Below are positions 51,040 through 61,547 of a stretch of DNA of 64,000 nucleotides, in pieces; the first letter of the stretch is position 1, and every line of letters begins with the position of its first letter. The DNA lies in the NCBI GenBank assembly GCA_029263415.1, contig JAJCXN010000037.1, positions 124,001-188,000 on the forward strand. Reading direction: 5' to 3'. The translations under genes and the position numbers were made by a program. This DNA is from Acidobacteriota bacterium (GTDB taxonomy: Bacteria; Acidobacteriota; Thermoanaerobaculia; Multivoradales; Multivoraceae). A model generated the notes under the pieces. That model was given only the letters and a program-made list of their open reading frames with translations. It searched no databases and was not told the origin of the DNA.

Positions 51040-52140
51040 GTGAACAACCGCGATAAGACCAGCTGGCCAGCCTCCGTCGGGGAGGTTGATGCCCAGTGGC
51101 TCAGTGCGGCAATGTCGTCGAGTTTCCAGAGTGAGGTCACGATTGAGTCGTTCGCGGCGAGCCGTGTCGGAACGGGGCAAGTGGGCGAATGCTGGCGACT
51201 GTGCTTGACTTACGCAGTGAGTGAAGGCGGGCCCGACAAACGTCCGAGTTCGGTGATTGCGAAGTTCGCCGCGAGCGACCCGGCAAGTCGCGCGGCGGGG
51301 GCATCGCAGTCTTGCTACGTCCGTGAGGTCGGCTTCTATCGCGACTTGCAGTCGCGCATTCGCACTCGGACGCCGCTAGTCCACTTCCAAGCAATTGCTG
51401 ACAACACCGTAGATCATGTGCTGCTTCTCGAAGATATGGCGCCGGCGGTCCAGGGTGACCAACTCTTGGGTTGCTCGATTGCGCAGGCTCAAGTTGCACT
51501 CGAACAGCTTGGCCTGTTGCATGCTCCCCTCTGGGACGATCCGAGCCTGGGTGCTTTGGACTGGCTAGAAGCTCCGACGGCTGAGGGACGCAAGCAGGTG
51601 TTGGGCTTGTTTGTTTCGTCGCACGCTGGGTTCATCGAGCGCTTCGAGGCCACGCTCGAGCCAGATACGGTAACTGTGGTTCGTTGGTTGGCGAACAACG
51701 CGGCCCGTCTAAAGGAGTACGCGGGACCAGTGGCCCCAGTGCACAATGACTATCGCGTCGACAACCTTCTGTTTGGTGACGGAGTCTCAGCACCAGCCGT
51801 GACCGCAGTTGACTGGCAGACCATCAAGCTCGGTTGCGGTCCGCACGATGCCGCGTACTTTCTCGGCGCAGGGCTTGCTCCAGACGTGCGTCGTGAGCAT
51901 GAACGCAAGCTGTTGGAAACGTCCTACTATGAGACCCTGCTCGCTCAGGGCGTTCGCGACTACGACTTTGATGCCTGTTGGCTTGACTATCGGCGGGGCG
52001 CGTTTGGCGGTCTGCTGATGGCGGTGATCGCGTCGATGTTAGTGGGGAGCACAGGGCGTGGCGACGCGATGTTTCTCACCATGGCCAACCGCCATGCGAC
52101 TCACGCCTTGGATGTCGACGCGATGAAAGCTGTGCTTTAG
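51040..52140 (+). CDS. Ecdysteroid-kinase-like phosphotransferase
   Basis: 366 residues from GTG 51040 (AGGGAG upstream). It is a second APH-fold kinase, distinct from the one at 4.2 kb: GTGQVGECWRLCLTY (nucleotide loop), SVIAKFAA, VREVGFYRDLQ, LLLEDMAP, the catalytic HNDYRVDNLLF (about 236-246) and AVDWQTIKLG (metal Asp). The order fits the CHK/EcKinase-like group, thought to phosphorylate hydroxylated lipids or steroids. It diverges from the DUF7064-like gene through a 203-bp gap, a pairing seen with these two families. The 3' end overlaps the convergent methyltransferase gene by four bases. Confidence 0.83.
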   Translation: MNNRDKTSWPASVGEVDAQWLSAAMSSSFQSEVTIESFAASRVGTGQVGECWRLCLTYAVSEGGPDKRPSSVIAKFAASDPASRAAGASQSCYVREVGFYRDLQSRIRTRTPLVHFQAIADNTVDHVLLLEDMAPAVQGDQLLGCSIAQAQVALEQLGLLHAPLWDDPSLGALDWLEAPTAEGRKQVLGLFVSSHAGFIERFEATLEPDTVTVVRWLANNAARLKEYAGPVAPVHNDYRVDNLLFGDGVSAPAVTAVDWQTIKLGCGPHDAAYFLGAGLAPDVRREHERKLLETSYYETLLAQGVRDYDFDACWLDYRRGAFGGLLMAVIASMLVGSTGRGDAMFLTMANRHATHALDVDAMKAVL

Positions 52141-54285: not shown

Positions 54286-55266
54286 TCAGTATTGCACTAG
54301 AGCCTCTTGCATGCCGGTTGCCACGAGTTCGCCTTGCTTGCTGAACATCTCAACATGGATCAATGCCAAGCCGTCGACTGCGATACGACTCTCCGCTACA
54401 AACAGATGCCACCGGCCAGGCGAAGGCACTTGGTGGAGCCACACCGAGTGATTCAGCGTAACGGCTTGGTTTTTGGTCCAAAGAATGCCGTGAGGAAGTG
54501 CCGCAGTCGAAAGCAGGGCGCGGTCGGAGGCGTAAAGCAGAAGCGCAATGCGAAGATGTTCGTCGAGTGTGTCAGAGCCTGGCACCCTGACCCAGTTGAC
54601 CGCTCGAGGAGGCAGTTTCACTCCCGGGGTCAGCATCTTGGGATCGGTCACTAGGACCTCGACGGCGTTGACCGGATGTTCGAGCCAACTCAGGCCCAAC
54701 TTCCTGGTTCGCTCTTGCTCGCGATCAAGGCAGTCATTCGGTGCTGGCACGTCGTCGGGAGGCTTTGCCACCGAGTGGCTGATGCCGGTCCGGGTGATCA
54801 AGGGCCGTGGCTCGCCGGGGTCGGCCTCCTTGAGCGGGATGCGGAAGCCGATGTCGCCTTCGAAAAGGACACGCGATCCTTGCCTGACGACCCCTCGTCG
54901 ATTGGAGAACGAGCGGCCGTCGCGGGCGGCGAGCACATCGCATTCAAGTTCCGTTTCGGAACGGCCTGCGCGCAAGAAGGTGCCACTGATGGAGTGGAGT
55001 CGCCTCGCGTCGTCGACCGTCGATTGCGCGGCTAGGTACGCCAGAGCGAAACTGGTTCCGCCGTAAAGACGTCCTGGTCCTTGGGTGAGCGTAGTGAACC
55101 TGCCCTCGAGGTCAGGTGGACTTCCCCCCCGTGCTTCCAGAGCGAAGCAATCAAGCACTCGGTCGAGTGCAATCTTGCGTCTGGCGGCTCGCTCAGCGGG
55201 CTCGATCCTTTCGAAGTCGGCAGACGAACTCAGGTCTGAACCCTGATCGAACGAGGAAGTGGTCAT
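54286..55266 (-). CDS. Acyl-CoA thioesterase (TesB-like double hot dog)
   Basis: 326 residues, close to TesB (about 290). First hot dog: RLYGGTSFALAYLAAQSTV and HSISGTFLRAG; second: LLYASDRALLSTAALPHG and TLNHSVWLHQ with the catalytic Asp/Thr/Gln-type residues of the family. It hydrolyses medium and long acyl-CoA to fatty acid and CoA. The N-terminus carries about 30 extra polar residues. The divergent gap to the esterase gene on its right is 255 bp. Confidence 0.88.
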   Translation of the reverse strand: MTTSSFDQGSDLSSSADFERIEPAERAARRKIALDRVLDCFALEARGGSPPDLEGRFTTLTQGPGRLYGGTSFALAYLAAQSTVDDARRLHSISGTFLRAGRSETELECDVLAARDGRSFSNRRGVVRQGSRVLFEGDIGFRIPLKEADPGEPRPLITRTGISHSVAKPPDDVPAPNDCLDREQERTRKLGLSWLEHPVNAVEVLVTDPKMLTPGVKLPPRAVNWVRVPGSDTLDEHLRIALLLYASDRALLSTAALPHGILWTKNQAVTLNHSVWLHQVPSPGRWHLFVAESRIAVDGLALIHVEMFSKQGELVATGMQEALVQY

Positions 55267-57380: not shown

Positions 57381-58535
57381 CTAGGCGTCCGCACTCCCAA
57401 CGGGGGGACCAACGTAGATTGACTCGGGTCGGATGAGACGCCCGTAATCGAGTTGCTCGAAGCAGTGTGCGATCCAGCCAACGCAGCGCCCAATTGCGAA
57501 GGTCGGTGTGAACTGGTCTTGGTTCAGGCCGATGGCGTGTAGGAGTAGGGCTGTGTAGTACTCGACGTTGGTGTCTAGGCGCCTCTCCGGCTTGCGCTCG
57601 GCTAGCACCTCAAGTGCAGTGCGCTCGACGGCGGTGGCCAAGTCGTAGAGCTCTTGGTTCTCGCCACTGCGCGCGAGCTTCACTGCGGCTGCGGCTAGGA
57701 CGTCCGCGCGCGGGTCTCGCACTTTGTAGACCCGATGGCCGAACCCCATGAGTCGCTCGCCGCGATCGAGCTTGGCCTCCAGAAAGGAGCGCGCGCGGCT
57801 AGGCTCCGCGATCTCGAACACCATGTCAAGCGCTGGTCCTGGAGCGCCGCCGTGCAGCGGTCCCTTGAGGGCGCCGAGCGCTCCGGTAACCGCAGATATG
57901 AGATCCGACTCCGTGGAGATGATTACTCGGGCGGTGAAGGTGGATGCATTCATCCCGTGGTCCGACACTGTGTTGAGGTACGTCTCAAGCGCCCGGGTCC
58001 GAGCGGGGCTGGGGGAGCGGCCTGCTAGTGGATCGCTGGAGAGCTGGTGGAGAAAATCTGCAGCGAGCCCAGGCTCATTGCTGGGGCCACCGGCCGTCCT
58101 GCCGCACGAGAAATGGTGGTGGCTGGCAACAATGGTGGGGAGCTTTGCTAGCAGTCTCAAGGCAGACTCCGTTCGCTCGGTAGATGTCGGCGACTCTGTG
58201 CCACTGGCGAGAGAGGCCACGGCCATGCGCAAAGCATCCATCGGGTCTGCATCACGGTTGGCTTCGAGCAGATCGAGCGTCGCTGGCGGTAGCGTGCGGT
58301 GGCCGGCCATCCTCGAGGCAACATCTGTGGTCTCCAAGAAGAGTTCGATCAGCTCTTCAAACGACGCCGAGGGGGCCAAGCTGTCAACGCGATGCCCCTT
58401 CAGCACTAACTCGCCCCCTGCGCCATCCACATGCGAGAGCGCGGTGCTGGCCGCCACGACCCCGGCGAGGCCGTCGCAGGAGGGCTGTTGTGGTCTTCCG
58501 TTACTTTCGATTGGCTGGCTCGCTTTCATGGTCAT
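57381..58535 (-). CDS. Citrate synthase (catalytic paralogue)
   Basis: 384 residues from ATG 58535; GGAGG lies eleven bases upstream, and the open frame further upstream is non-coding. All active-site segments are intact: SDHGMNASTFTAR, KGPLHGGAPG, GFGHRVYKVRDPRAD, LDTNVEYYTALLL and GRCVGWIAH. It condenses acetyl-CoA (or propionyl-CoA, as a methylcitrate synthase) with oxaloacetate. It is divergent from a second citrate synthase gene with a DNA-binding domain, separated by 144 bp. The N-terminal 40 residues are polar and not conserved. Confidence 0.92.
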   Translation of the reverse strand: MTMKASQPIESNGRPQQPSCDGLAGVVAASTALSHVDGAGGELVLKGHRVDSLAPSASFEELIELFLETTDVASRMAGHRTLPPATLDLLEANRDADPMDALRMAVASLASGTESPTSTERTESALRLLAKLPTIVASHHHFSCGRTAGGPSNEPGLAADFLHQLSSDPLAGRSPSPARTRALETYLNTVSDHGMNASTFTARVIISTESDLISAVTGALGALKGPLHGGAPGPALDMVFEIAEPSRARSFLEAKLDRGERLMGFGHRVYKVRDPRADVLAAAAVKLARSGENQELYDLATAVERTALEVLAERKPERRLDTNVEYYTALLLHAIGLNQDQFTPTFAIGRCVGWIAHCFEQLDYGRLIRPESIYVGPPVGSADA

Positions 58536-58628
58536 GGCGTTGATGTTCCTCCGTTGCTGGGTTGTTTCTCGACTGGGATGAGTTTGAGGGCTGGAGTCCC
58601 TGGAGGTCGATCTTGAGCGTGAGGTGAT

Positions 58629-58660
58629 ACATTGATCAAGGTTGATTCTGTAATCAATGT
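58629..58660. promoter_or_regulatory. Inverted-repeat operator candidate between the citrate synthase genes
   Basis: ACATTGAT (58629-58636) and ATCAATGT (58653-58660) are exact reverse complements 16 bp apart. Inside lie the palindrome TTGATCAA (58632-58639) and the pair TTGATT / AATCAA (58642-58647 and 58652-58657). So four TTGAT half-sites sit in 32 bp. The block ends 20 bases before the start of the helix-turn-helix citrate synthase and lies about 94 bases upstream of the other. Confidence 0.65.
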
Positions 58661-58679
58661 GGGCAAACAGGAACGTGCA

Positions 58680-59951
58680 ATGAGCGTCGATGAGAACAGG
58701 GGTGTCGCCAACGGGGACTACTGCACAGCGGTCGAAGCTGCACGGACACTCGGAGTCAAGTTGCCAACGCTCTATGCCTATGTCAGCCGGGGGCAGTTGC
58801 ATTCGGTGTCACTTCAGGGGAGTCGCCGTCGCGGCTACCTTCGGGCTGAAGTTGCCGCTTTGGGTCAGCGCCGAAAGCAAACCCGGACCGCAGACTCAGC
58901 GGCACGTTCGGCGCTCGACTGGGGCCTCCCGGTGCTCGACACTGAACTGACGCTGATCGCGGACGGCAAGCTCTACTACCGCGGACTCGACGCCACCGAG
59001 CTGGCGACCACCAGTTCGCTCGAGCGCGTCGCTGCTCTCTTGTGGTTGGGGGATCAAGACCGCGAAGCGGAGCTATTTGGGGAAGCACTTGAGCCGGTAC
59101 CGAAGGCTTGGGTTGAGGCGACTTCAATCGCTGAGTCTGCTCATCCGAGCTCGAGCTTGTTGCTCGCTGTCCAGCTCTCCGAGATGACTGATCCCTTGGC
59201 CGGCGCCTTGACCGAGGAAGCGATGGTGGTTGCCGGAGCTCGGATTGTGCGCGCGCTGGTCGCAGCGGTGGCTCGCCTAAAGCGGAGGAGGCGGGGCCCT
59301 CTGGTTGAGATCCTTTCCAAGGAGTGGTGCCGCAGGCGTTCCGATTTGATGGTCCCCCTCAACACCGCGCTGGTGCTGTGCGCTGATCACGAGCTGAATG
59401 TGTCTTCGTTTACCGCGAGGTGCATCGCATCTTCCGGAGCAGGTCCTTATGAGGCAGTGTGTGGAGGGCTGTGCGCTCTGCGTGGGTATCGCCACGGTGG
59501 GCATTCAGATCGAGTGGAGGCGCTCTTTCGCGAAGTGGGGATCGCTTCGGGGAGGCGGGCTCCGACCCGCGAGCAAGTACGACGACGACTGAGTGCACGC
59601 ATCCAACGCGGTGAACGCCTACCCGGTCTTGGCCACAATCTGTATCCGAATGGCGACCCGAGGTACGGGGCCATCCTTCGGTCTCTGGAGCAAGCCCAGC
59701 CGAATTCGCCGTTGGTTCGAGGTATGCGGCGCGTCGCAGAGGAGGGCCGGCGCCTGACCGGACAGCACCCGACGCTCGACTTGGGGTTGGCGGCTGTCGC
59801 AGCGACATCCGGTCTACCCTTGGGATCGGCGTGGACGATCTTTGCCTTGGGCCGCAGCGTCGGCTGGATCGCTCATGCTCTCGAAGAGCGGCGCCGCAGC
59901 AAACTGATTCGGCCGCGAGCTCGGTACATTGGGCCCGCTGTTGGGGCGTAG
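58680..59951 (+). CDS. Citrate synthase fused to an N-terminal helix-turn-helix domain
   Basis: 423 residues from ATG 58680 (AGGA eight bases upstream; a TTG at 58632 is in frame but lies inside the operator candidate). Residues about 11-60 form a MerR/excisionase-type HTH: YCTAVEAARTLGVKLPTLYAYVSRGQL followed by RRRGYLRAEVAAL. The rest is a citrate synthase domain. The catalytic His sites are kept (DHELNVSSFTAR, RGYRHGGHSD, GLGHNLYP) and an Asp in the third position (TLDLGLAAV), but the Arg of the usual GHRVY is Asn. It may be an enzyme with DNA-binding ability, a sensor of citrate-synthase ligands, or both. Confidence 0.88.
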   Translation: MSVDENRGVANGDYCTAVEAARTLGVKLPTLYAYVSRGQLHSVSLQGSRRRGYLRAEVAALGQRRKQTRTADSAARSALDWGLPVLDTELTLIADGKLYYRGLDATELATTSSLERVAALLWLGDQDREAELFGEALEPVPKAWVEATSIAESAHPSSSLLLAVQLSEMTDPLAGALTEEAMVVAGARIVRALVAAVARLKRRRRGPLVEILSKEWCRRRSDLMVPLNTALVLCADHELNVSSFTARCIASSGAGPYEAVCGGLCALRGYRHGGHSDRVEALFREVGIASGRRAPTREQVRRRLSARIQRGERLPGLGHNLYPNGDPRYGAILRSLEQAQPNSPLVRGMRRVAEEGRRLTGQHPTLDLGLAAVAATSGLPLGSAWTIFALGRSVGWIAHALEERRRSKLIRPRARYIGPAVGA

Positions 59952-59992: not shown

Positions 59993-60451
59993 CTAGTTTT
60001 GGTGCCTCTCGTCGAGTCCCAGTCGCCGCCAGGACAGCACGCTTGGACCACTCGCGCCGCGCGTGACCCATAGTTCGCTCACCGCGCTGGCAGCGCCGAG
60101 CTTCGCAGTGGCACGGATCTGAGATCGGCTAGGCGACTCCTCGCGGACGTTGCTTTGAATTGTTCCGGCCGCAAACTCTCGTTCCTCGACGCCACCGAAA
60201 TCTCGGTCGAGATCAAGGGAGGCCAGCGTCTCAGCGATCACCGAGTCATTCATCGAACGCAGGTCGAGCTGTTGACGGCTGCGCAGCTGCTGTCGCTGTT
60301 CGTGGAACACCAAGGAGAAGACCAGGGTTGCGGCAGTAGCCAGTATCAAGAGGGTGAACAGGGTGGTGAGCAGCACGTGACCGTCTTGGACCCTTGGCCC
60401 TGGCCTGTGCCTTTGCCTTTGCCTTGAGGAGCCACGCACGGCACTCAGCAT
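59993..60451 (-). CDS. PilX-like minor pilin operon protein
   Basis: 152 residues from ATG 60451, which has GAGG nine bases upstream; a GTG at 60487 overlapping the preceding gene is an alternative. A basic, Arg/Gln-rich N-terminus (coded by a TTTGCC-type hexamer repeat) precedes GHVLLTTLFTLLILATAATLVFSLVF and then a polar helix with QLRSRQQLDLRSMND, the pattern of PilX/GspK-like proteins. No standard GFTL(E) cleavage motif is present. It is the third gene of a pilin-like set with overlapping upstream members. Confidence 0.6.
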   Translation of the reverse strand: MLSAVRGSSRQRQRHRPGPRVQDGHVLLTTLFTLLILATAATLVFSLVFHEQRQQLRSRQQLDLRSMNDSVIAETLASLDLDRDFGGVEEREFAAGTIQSNVREESPSRSQIRATAKLGAASAVSELWVTRGASGPSVLSWRRLGLDERHQN

Positions 60452-60480
60452 CTGGTAGCACCTCGGTGGCCTGCTGTTCA

Positions 60481-61068
60481 CTACCACGCCCTCGTTGAGC
60501 GCGCTCGTGACGTCAAGACGAGGCGCTTGACCGGTCGTCGATTGTTGAACAAGCCAGTCTCGACCTTGGAGACCACGGCGCTATTGGCACTCGAGATGGT
60601 GTTCAGAGCGCCCCGCGCTTGCCACTCGATGCGTACCGTGGGCGTGCCATCCGAGAGCCACCGAAAGCTGTCGAGCGGCGCTAACCGCTGGGTTTCGATC
60701 TCGGGGTCTTCAACGTCGGTAGCCAGGGATGAGCGCACCAAGAAACCCTCGTGGAGGGCGTAGGTGATGATCGCGTCACGATGCCGCAGTAGAAGAGGCT
60801 CGGTAGACCACTCGAGATCGAGGCTCTGCGCGACCGCCCGACTGAGTGACACGTCGTTGCGCAGTCGAGCCTCGGAGAGCTCGACGCCGGTGCGGGTGAT
60901 CGCTGGAATGGACGCCGCCGAGAGTCGATATGACTGCAGGAGAATCTGGCTGACCAAAGCCAAGATCGCACTAATGATCAAGGTGGTGACGATCAACTCG
61001 AGCAAGCTGAAGCCAGCCCCCGAATGCCCGTTGCAGCGGATGTGTACCCGTCGACTGCAACCGTTCAC
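60481..61068 (-). CDS. PilW-like prepilin-type minor pilin
   Basis: 195 residues from GTG 61068 (GTGA overlap of four bases with the preceding gene). The class III prepilin signal GAGFSLLELIVTTLIIS (about 18-34) has Gly at -1, Phe at +1 and Glu at +5, so a prepilin peptidase should process it. The rest is a beta-rich globular domain. This is the PilW/PulJ-like position in a minor-pilin operon of type IV pili or type II secretion. Confidence 0.8.
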   Translation of the reverse strand: MNGCSRRVHIRCNGHSGAGFSLLELIVTTLIISAILALVSQILLQSYRLSAASIPAITRTGVELSEARLRNDVSLSRAVAQSLDLEWSTEPLLLRHRDAIITYALHEGFLVRSSLATDVEDPEIETQRLAPLDSFRWLSDGTPTVRIEWQARGALNTISSANSAVVSKVETGLFNNRRPVKRLVLTSRARSTRAW

Positions 61069-61547
61069 AACGACGACTCGGTAGCGAGCAGGGCACTTAG
61101 GCCGGGCTCAAAGAAGCGAGTGGTCAAGGTGCGTACTCGAGTAAATCGGCCTCGTCGCCCGGTCGCCTTGAACTCGACCTCGAAGAGGTCGCTGAACTCG
61201 GTCACTTCCACTTGGGCGCTAAGGCTCGGAATCACGGCGCCTTCGCTCGTTCTTGGTGCGTTCTCTGCGCCGGTATCCGCCTCAGGCAAAGAGAGCACGC
61301 GAAACGTGGTCCCCTCGATGGTGGCGGTTTGCAGTCGGGTCAGCTTTTCTAGGTCAATGACGCGAGCGCGCATGGCTTCGTGTAACTGGTCTAGTTGCTC
61401 GTCCAGTTGAGACTGAAGCGCGACTAGTTCAAGCGCGGCTCGTCCACTAATGATGGCGCCGAGCCCGATTCCTAGTCCCATAGCCAGAATAAGCAACGCA
61501 ACCAAGCACTCGATCATCGTGAAGCCGTTGGATCTCGTGTTGTGCAT
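61065..61547 (-). CDS. PilV-like prepilin-type minor pilin
   Basis: 160 residues. It starts MHNTRSNGFTMIECLVALLILAMG: Gly8 at -1, Phe at +1 and Glu at +5, a clean type IV prepilin leader. A short globular part with helical spine and a C-terminal beta region follow. It is the first gene of the three-gene set and overlaps the PilW-like gene by four bases. Such minor pilins prime assembly of a pilus or pseudopilus; the core assembly genes are not in the window. Confidence 0.82.
   Translation of the reverse strand: MHNTRSNGFTMIECLVALLILAMGLGIGLGAIISGRAALELVALQSQLDEQLDQLHEAMRARVIDLEKLTRLQTATIEGTTFRVLSLPEADTGAENAPRTSEGAVIPSLSAQVEVTEFSDLFEVEFKATGRRGRFTRVRTLTTRFFEPGLSALLATESSL

Follow-up and report, generated by a model that had tools for sequence, protein, structure and literature searches.

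The window, meaning the whole 64,000-nucleotide stretch of Acidobacteriota DNA that was analysed, contains two intact, divergent open reading frames that both encode citrate synthase-related proteins. The partner gene (57381..58535, minus strand) encodes a CitA-type citrate synthase of 384 aa, assigned by alignment and by its subfamily model (NCBIfam PRK12350, 337.1 bits against a cut-off of 332). The second gene (58680..59951, plus strand) encodes a protein of 423 aa in which an HTH domain is fused to a citrate synthase (HTH-CS), as recognised from profile matches, an AlphaFold2 model and Foldseek. With the partner starting at ATG 58535, the divergent regulatory gap read from the sequence measures 144 bp (58536..58679). 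A Shine-Dalgarno-like GGAGGA on the minus strand precedes the partner gene and AGGAA precedes position 58680, where the ATG is the most likely start of the fusion; with a start at TTG 58632 the operator described below would fall within the reading frame. A sequence-only reading had described an intact citrate synthase diverging from an HTH-bearing second one, and both frames are indeed intact, but the partner's catalytic Asp has been replaced by Glu.

Citrate synthase catalyses entry into the TCA cycle. A third enzyme of this kind, of the main type (460 bits), is encoded at another place in the host genome, which makes the divergent pair accessory. The fusion occurs in none of ten sampled relatives from the host's own family, indicating a recent gain or loss of the pair in the host lineage. 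An acyl-CoA thioesterase II gene and an ecdysteroid-kinase/APH-like gene (54286-55266 and 51040-52140) lie a few kb upstream and show no sign of belonging to the citrate synthase pair. On the other side, 59993-61547 holds three small minus-strand genes in series, one of which (61065-61547) carries an N_methyl pilin motif, while the other two are pseudopilin-like by reading.

The fusion protein and its relatives

The fusion consists of a winged HTH (about residues 14-54), a long helix (55-78), a flexible linker (about 70-82) and a citrate synthase domain (81-413). This last domain matches Citrate_synt (PF00285) over residues 81-413 with an E-value of 1e-59 and 202.7 bits, and the partner scores 340.6 bits with the same profile (cut-off 27 in both cases). 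The match to HTH_17 (residues 14-51, 24.3 bits) is slightly below the curated Pfam cut-off of 27. However, HTH_17 is found in all 66 aligned relatives and MerR_1 in 60 of the 66 (E<=0.001), so that an N-terminal MerR/HTH_17 domain is present across the family even though the window protein itself falls under the cut-off. The AlphaFold2 model (mean pLDDT 91.6) reproduces the winged HTH, the long helix, the flexible linker and the citrate synthase fold, and its Foldseek matches are citrate and methylcitrate synthases. The recognition-helix residues TLYAYVSRG are among the best-conserved columns of the alignment. A sequence search for a solved structure with a fused HTH gave no match starting before query residue 85 among the 60 PDB matches listed.

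A scan of genome contigs recovered 80 fusion relatives with 37-61% identity over the best segment, distributed over Chloroflexota, Acidobacteriota, Actinomycetota (Rubrobacter), Gemmatimonadota, Myxococcota, Armatimonadota, Binatota and Pseudomonadota. Further relatives are present on plasmid records of Deinococcus, Azospirillum, Agrobacterium, Ensifer, Comamonas, Cupriavidus and Embleya, and a sample of the host's class contained the full-length fusion in 9 of 46 genomes. Near-identical loci in metagenome-assembled genomes named Gemmatimonadetes and Latescibacterota (L058 and L060), and another in one named Klebsiella pneumoniae (L006), look like binning or naming errors. In most of the relative loci a citrate synthase gene lies divergent, upstream of HTH-CS. 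Clustering of the neighbouring genes across loci found no conserved operon beyond the pair; clusters 1 and 2 consist of antisense shadow frames. Since neighbours other than the citrate synthase vary among loci, the pair is the unit.

An operator that accompanies the fusion

The gap contains a repeat block at 58629..58660, delimited from the sequence and from aligned sites. As the sequence-only reading had noted, it packs four TTGAT/ATCAA half-sites (58632-58636, 58635-58639, 58642-58646 and 58653-58657) into 32 bp, together with an exact 8-bp inverted repeat formed by ACATTGAT (58629-58636) and ATCAATGT (58653-58660). Alignment of the upstream regions of related loci yielded the operator (G/A)TCAA-N2-TTGAT-N6-ATCAA, with N7 in Xanthomonadales and some others, and the predicted operator of the window, ATCAA-GG-TTGAT-TCTGTA-ATCAAT (58635..58658, plus strand), matches RTCAANNTTGATN6ATCAAY. 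With N6 spacing the half-sites are 11 bp apart, which would fit two HTHs placed one helical turn from each other. Allowing up to two mismatches, the window has three overlapping matches, whereas the expectation from shuffled windows is 0.05. Across the 6.9-Mb host genome there is a single exact match and none to the backwards control, and an N5-spaced pattern gave only chance matches there.

The sequence-only reading had proposed that the repeats be compared across homologous pairs, where their absence would count against it; of 79 related loci, drawn from many phyla, 69 in fact have the operator at the promoter of HTH-CS or of the partner, and two more have it nearby. Exact N6 sites lie upstream of HTH-CS genes in 53 cases, the other 8 being at the partner promoter or adjoining the pair, and none lies anywhere else in the 754 kb covered. 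Seven loci (L016, L018, L028, L055, L056, L064 and L077) have no canonical site. Three of these (L056, L064 and L077, from Myxococcus) share a TCGAGTCGAGTCGACAA block upstream of HTH-CS in place of the missing TTGAT operator.

A scan of 396 genomes of the same phylum with the pattern alone returned 14 exact sites (control 0), of which nine, including that of the window, adjoin HTH-CS genes; eight further HTH-CS genes were recovered in this way. The five sites with no adjoining HTH-CS gene (ATCAAAATTGATCTC..., ATCAAGCTTGATTCC..., GTCAAATTTGATGTC..., ATCAACTTTGATTCC... and ATCAAGATTGATCAC...) were taken as chance occurrences. In the class sample, the operator is also present in two HTH-CS genomes outside the pattern scan and in partial form in a third (G222), and it stands beside no gene in the pattern-scanned genomes of that sample that have no HTH-CS. 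By sequence comparison, then, the repeats in the window are a conserved predicted operator that is exclusively associated with HTH-CS genes.

The operator overlaps promoter elements in the related loci. In the direction of the partner, the outer half-site is the -35 box TTGACA, followed by N17-TAnnnT, in 33 of 59 loci (six or fewer for any other spacing); the promoter signal in the direction of the fusion is weaker (12 of 59). The gap of the window itself has no recognisable sigma-70 consensus promoter in either direction, and the -35 overlap therefore rests on the relatives. The earlier proposal that the fusion controls both promoters is upheld to the extent that, in these other loci, the operator coincides with the -35 box of the partner. 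A protein bound there would cover this box, and repression by the fusion is for this reason favoured over activation.

What stands opposite the fusion differs among lineages and includes a CitA-type synthase, prpB-prpC, a family III CoA-transferase or an HMGL-like enzyme. In Lysobacteraceae, the fusion diverges from prpB and prpC of the methylcitrate cycle with the operator in between, in its N7 form in L070-L073, L079 and L081-L083 and as an N8-like variant in L075, which makes the fusion a candidate regulator of the methylcitrate cycle in this family. Azospirillum, Comamonas and Undibacterium have a family III CoA-transferase as the divergent partner, whereas on a Deinococcus plasmid (L127, 2861-3904) it is an HMGL-like gene of the homocitrate/isopropylmalate synthase type, with the operator in the gap. 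The Comamonas site is partial, whereas the other loci with non-CitA partners have canonical sites. This HMGL-like partner represents another acetyl-CoA/2-oxoacid condensing fold. Where another gene splits the pair, the site is found at the promoter of the HTH-CS transcription unit or at the partner. In the tree, the prpBC group forms one clade and the CoA-transferase partners require two changes. A change of partner with the operator retained would be explained by a regulator that swaps targets, and not by an enzyme with an incidental HTH. The view of the fusion as a regulator of the shared gap is therefore well supported by comparative genomics, since the operator stays with HTH-CS when the partner enzyme differs.

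Active sites and the putative ligand

Active-site residues were aligned to the citrate synthase of M. sedula, where His214, His253, Asp307, Arg262, Arg332 and Arg351' take part in citrate binding or turnover (PMC6386500). The window fusion and 86 of 92 relatives retain all seven residues examined (H237, H272, H319, R328, D367, R392 and R411). The remaining six have lost H319, the equivalent of His253, and one of them also R392; most of the six keep the operator. The window partner reads NVEYY, with Glu at the position of Asp307, and the same Glu is present in all 56 CitA-type partners, whereas PrpC-type partners keep the catalytic Asp (8 of 8). The closest solved chain to the partner is 2c6x, 'citrate synthase 1', which we take to be CitA of B. 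subtilis and which reads NVEFY; chains of CitA from M. tuberculosis likewise read NVE. The regulator would consequently have the more canonical active site of the two, the enzyme being the altered one. The sequence-only reading had suggested instead that an Asn replacing Arg in the motif GHRVY weakens catalysis by the fusion. This is not supported, as the position (GHNLY in the window) is variable, 43 of the 92 relatives having Pro there, 14 Arg and 8 Gln, and lies outside the citrate, oxaloacetate and catalytic residues of the M. sedula enzyme (PMC6386500).

Basic residues have changed family-wide. In the loop that also holds this position, 76 of 92 fusions have Pro instead of a basic Lys; an Arg that precedes the catalytic Asp, and that the partners conserve, is missing from 91 of 92. 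The loop belongs to the small domain, which forms the acetyl-CoA pocket, and altered CoA binding is accordingly possible. An acid (oxaloacetate, citrate or methylcitrate) is thus preferred over acyl-CoA as the putative ligand, and acyl-CoA, which the sequence-only reading had also named, is the less likely, weaker half of the sensing proposal. The retained oxaloacetate and citrate residues fit the proposed sensing in the citrate synthase pocket. The domain may also still be an enzyme, given the full catalytic triad of most members, which a pure sensor would not need.

A proposed one-component regulator and its alternatives

We consider it probable that the fusion is a one-component regulator in which a citrate synthase dimer is the sensor and the HTH binds the operator in the gap, with both promoters repressed in the unliganded state. 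DNA binding by the fusion, repression, the ligand and conformational coupling are the parts that we infer. The N-terminal winged HTH would bind the operator between the protein's own gene and the divergent partner, and, as this operator covers the -35 box of the partner and probably also that of the fusion, the unliganded protein would most likely repress both genes. Citrate synthases close upon binding oxaloacetate or citrate (PMC6386500). Binding of oxaloacetate, citrate or methylcitrate in the conserved cleft would similarly close the citrate synthase domains; the two HTH heads would thereby change position, and the promoter would be freed or re-set. The accessory CitA-type synthase would in this way be made only when substrate or product signals a need.

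A more tentative reading is that of a trigger enzyme, where a working citrate or methylcitrate synthase also represses and its catalytic state, not mere ligand occupancy, sets DNA binding. The retention of all seven catalytic and substrate residues in most members would be expected of such a protein, as would their contrast with the Glu of every CitA-type partner; however, most of the members that lack H319 still have the operator, and the loop changes may have weakened CoA binding. Its extension to the whole family, in which a catalytically competent citrate synthase is the operator-bound repressor across phyla, reads turnover or substrate-driven domain closure out directly as transcription and has been re-deployed, along with its operator, to various acyl-CoA and 2-oxoacid enzymes such as CitA, PrpBC, CoA-transferase and an HMGL-type synthase, is similarly doubtful though conceivable. 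Activation of the partner combined with self-repression, in the manner of LysR proteins, seems unlikely. The TTGAT-N6-ATCAA dyad is centred some 10 bp upstream of the -35 hexamer of the partner, and in the direction of the fusion the dyad begins at the candidate -35 (TTGATN), as this arrangement would predict, but the centre falls near -45 and not at -41.5, the -35 box of the partner is itself the third conserved half-site, and the partner promoters are near consensus and would need no activator. It is very improbable that the operator serves another regulator and that the HTH only helps the enzyme to assemble or localise. Proteins other than regulators can also carry HTH_17/MerR-like domains, and MtrA has been reported to bind the gap between citA3 and citA4 of S. 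coelicolor in gel shifts (PMC12323332); against this, the operator tracks HTH-CS across phyla and partners and is absent beside genes in the scanned class genomes without HTH-CS, and the recognition helix is highly conserved.

On the comparative sequence evidence, HTH-CS proteins very likely constitute an overlooked, cross-phylum family of metabolite-sensing gene regulators. As the sequence-only reading had stated, the combination of HTH and citrate synthase does occur in databases, where it is listed under enzyme names ('citrate synthase family protein'). If these proteins regulate, a central point of metabolism is wrongly annotated in many genomes, and the conserved operator offers an immediate test in many species. 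The proposal, if true, would provide a new architecture among one-component sensors, responsive to oxaloacetate, citrate or methylcitrate and of possible use as a metabolite biosensor, and a candidate regulator for the methylcitrate (prpBC) genes in Xanthomonadales relatives. No publication proposing the fusion as a regulator was found in the open-access literature, which leaves its novelty unproven.

Several known systems resemble the proposed one. In B. subtilis, the LysR repressor CitR is encoded divergently from the minor citrate synthase CitA, and, as in the window, a CitA-type synthase with the Asp-to-Glu change (2c6x) is accompanied by a divergent local regulator; in the window, however, the part of the LysR protein would be taken by a second citrate synthase that bears a MerR-like HTH. 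PutA and BirA combine enzyme and regulator in one protein, and like these, NadR and MocR/GabR, the fusion would join the fold of a metabolic enzyme to a DNA-binding domain and sense its own pathway, although fold and operator differ and, to our knowledge, none of these has a citrate synthase domain. HTH-CS can be grouped with the enzyme-derived one-component regulators, as a new variant among them. With the MerR family it shares the MerR_1 match of most members and, in the model, a long helix after the winged HTH, but the putative sensor is an entire citrate synthase. Moreover, the classical MerR operator sits in an over-long promoter spacer of 19-20 bp, whereas the partner promoters have a 17-bp spacer with the operator on the -35 side, and the fusion is therefore not classed as a classical MerR regulator. 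SCO5831 (citA3) and SCO5832 (citA4) of S. coelicolor were both taken as putative synthases under the control of MtrA, in a study that assigns no regulatory role to either protein (PMC12323332). They are likened here to the window pair by gene arrangement, being adjacent citrate synthase genes that share an intergenic region. In Embleya, another member of the Streptomycetaceae, HTH-CS adjoins a plain citrate synthase.
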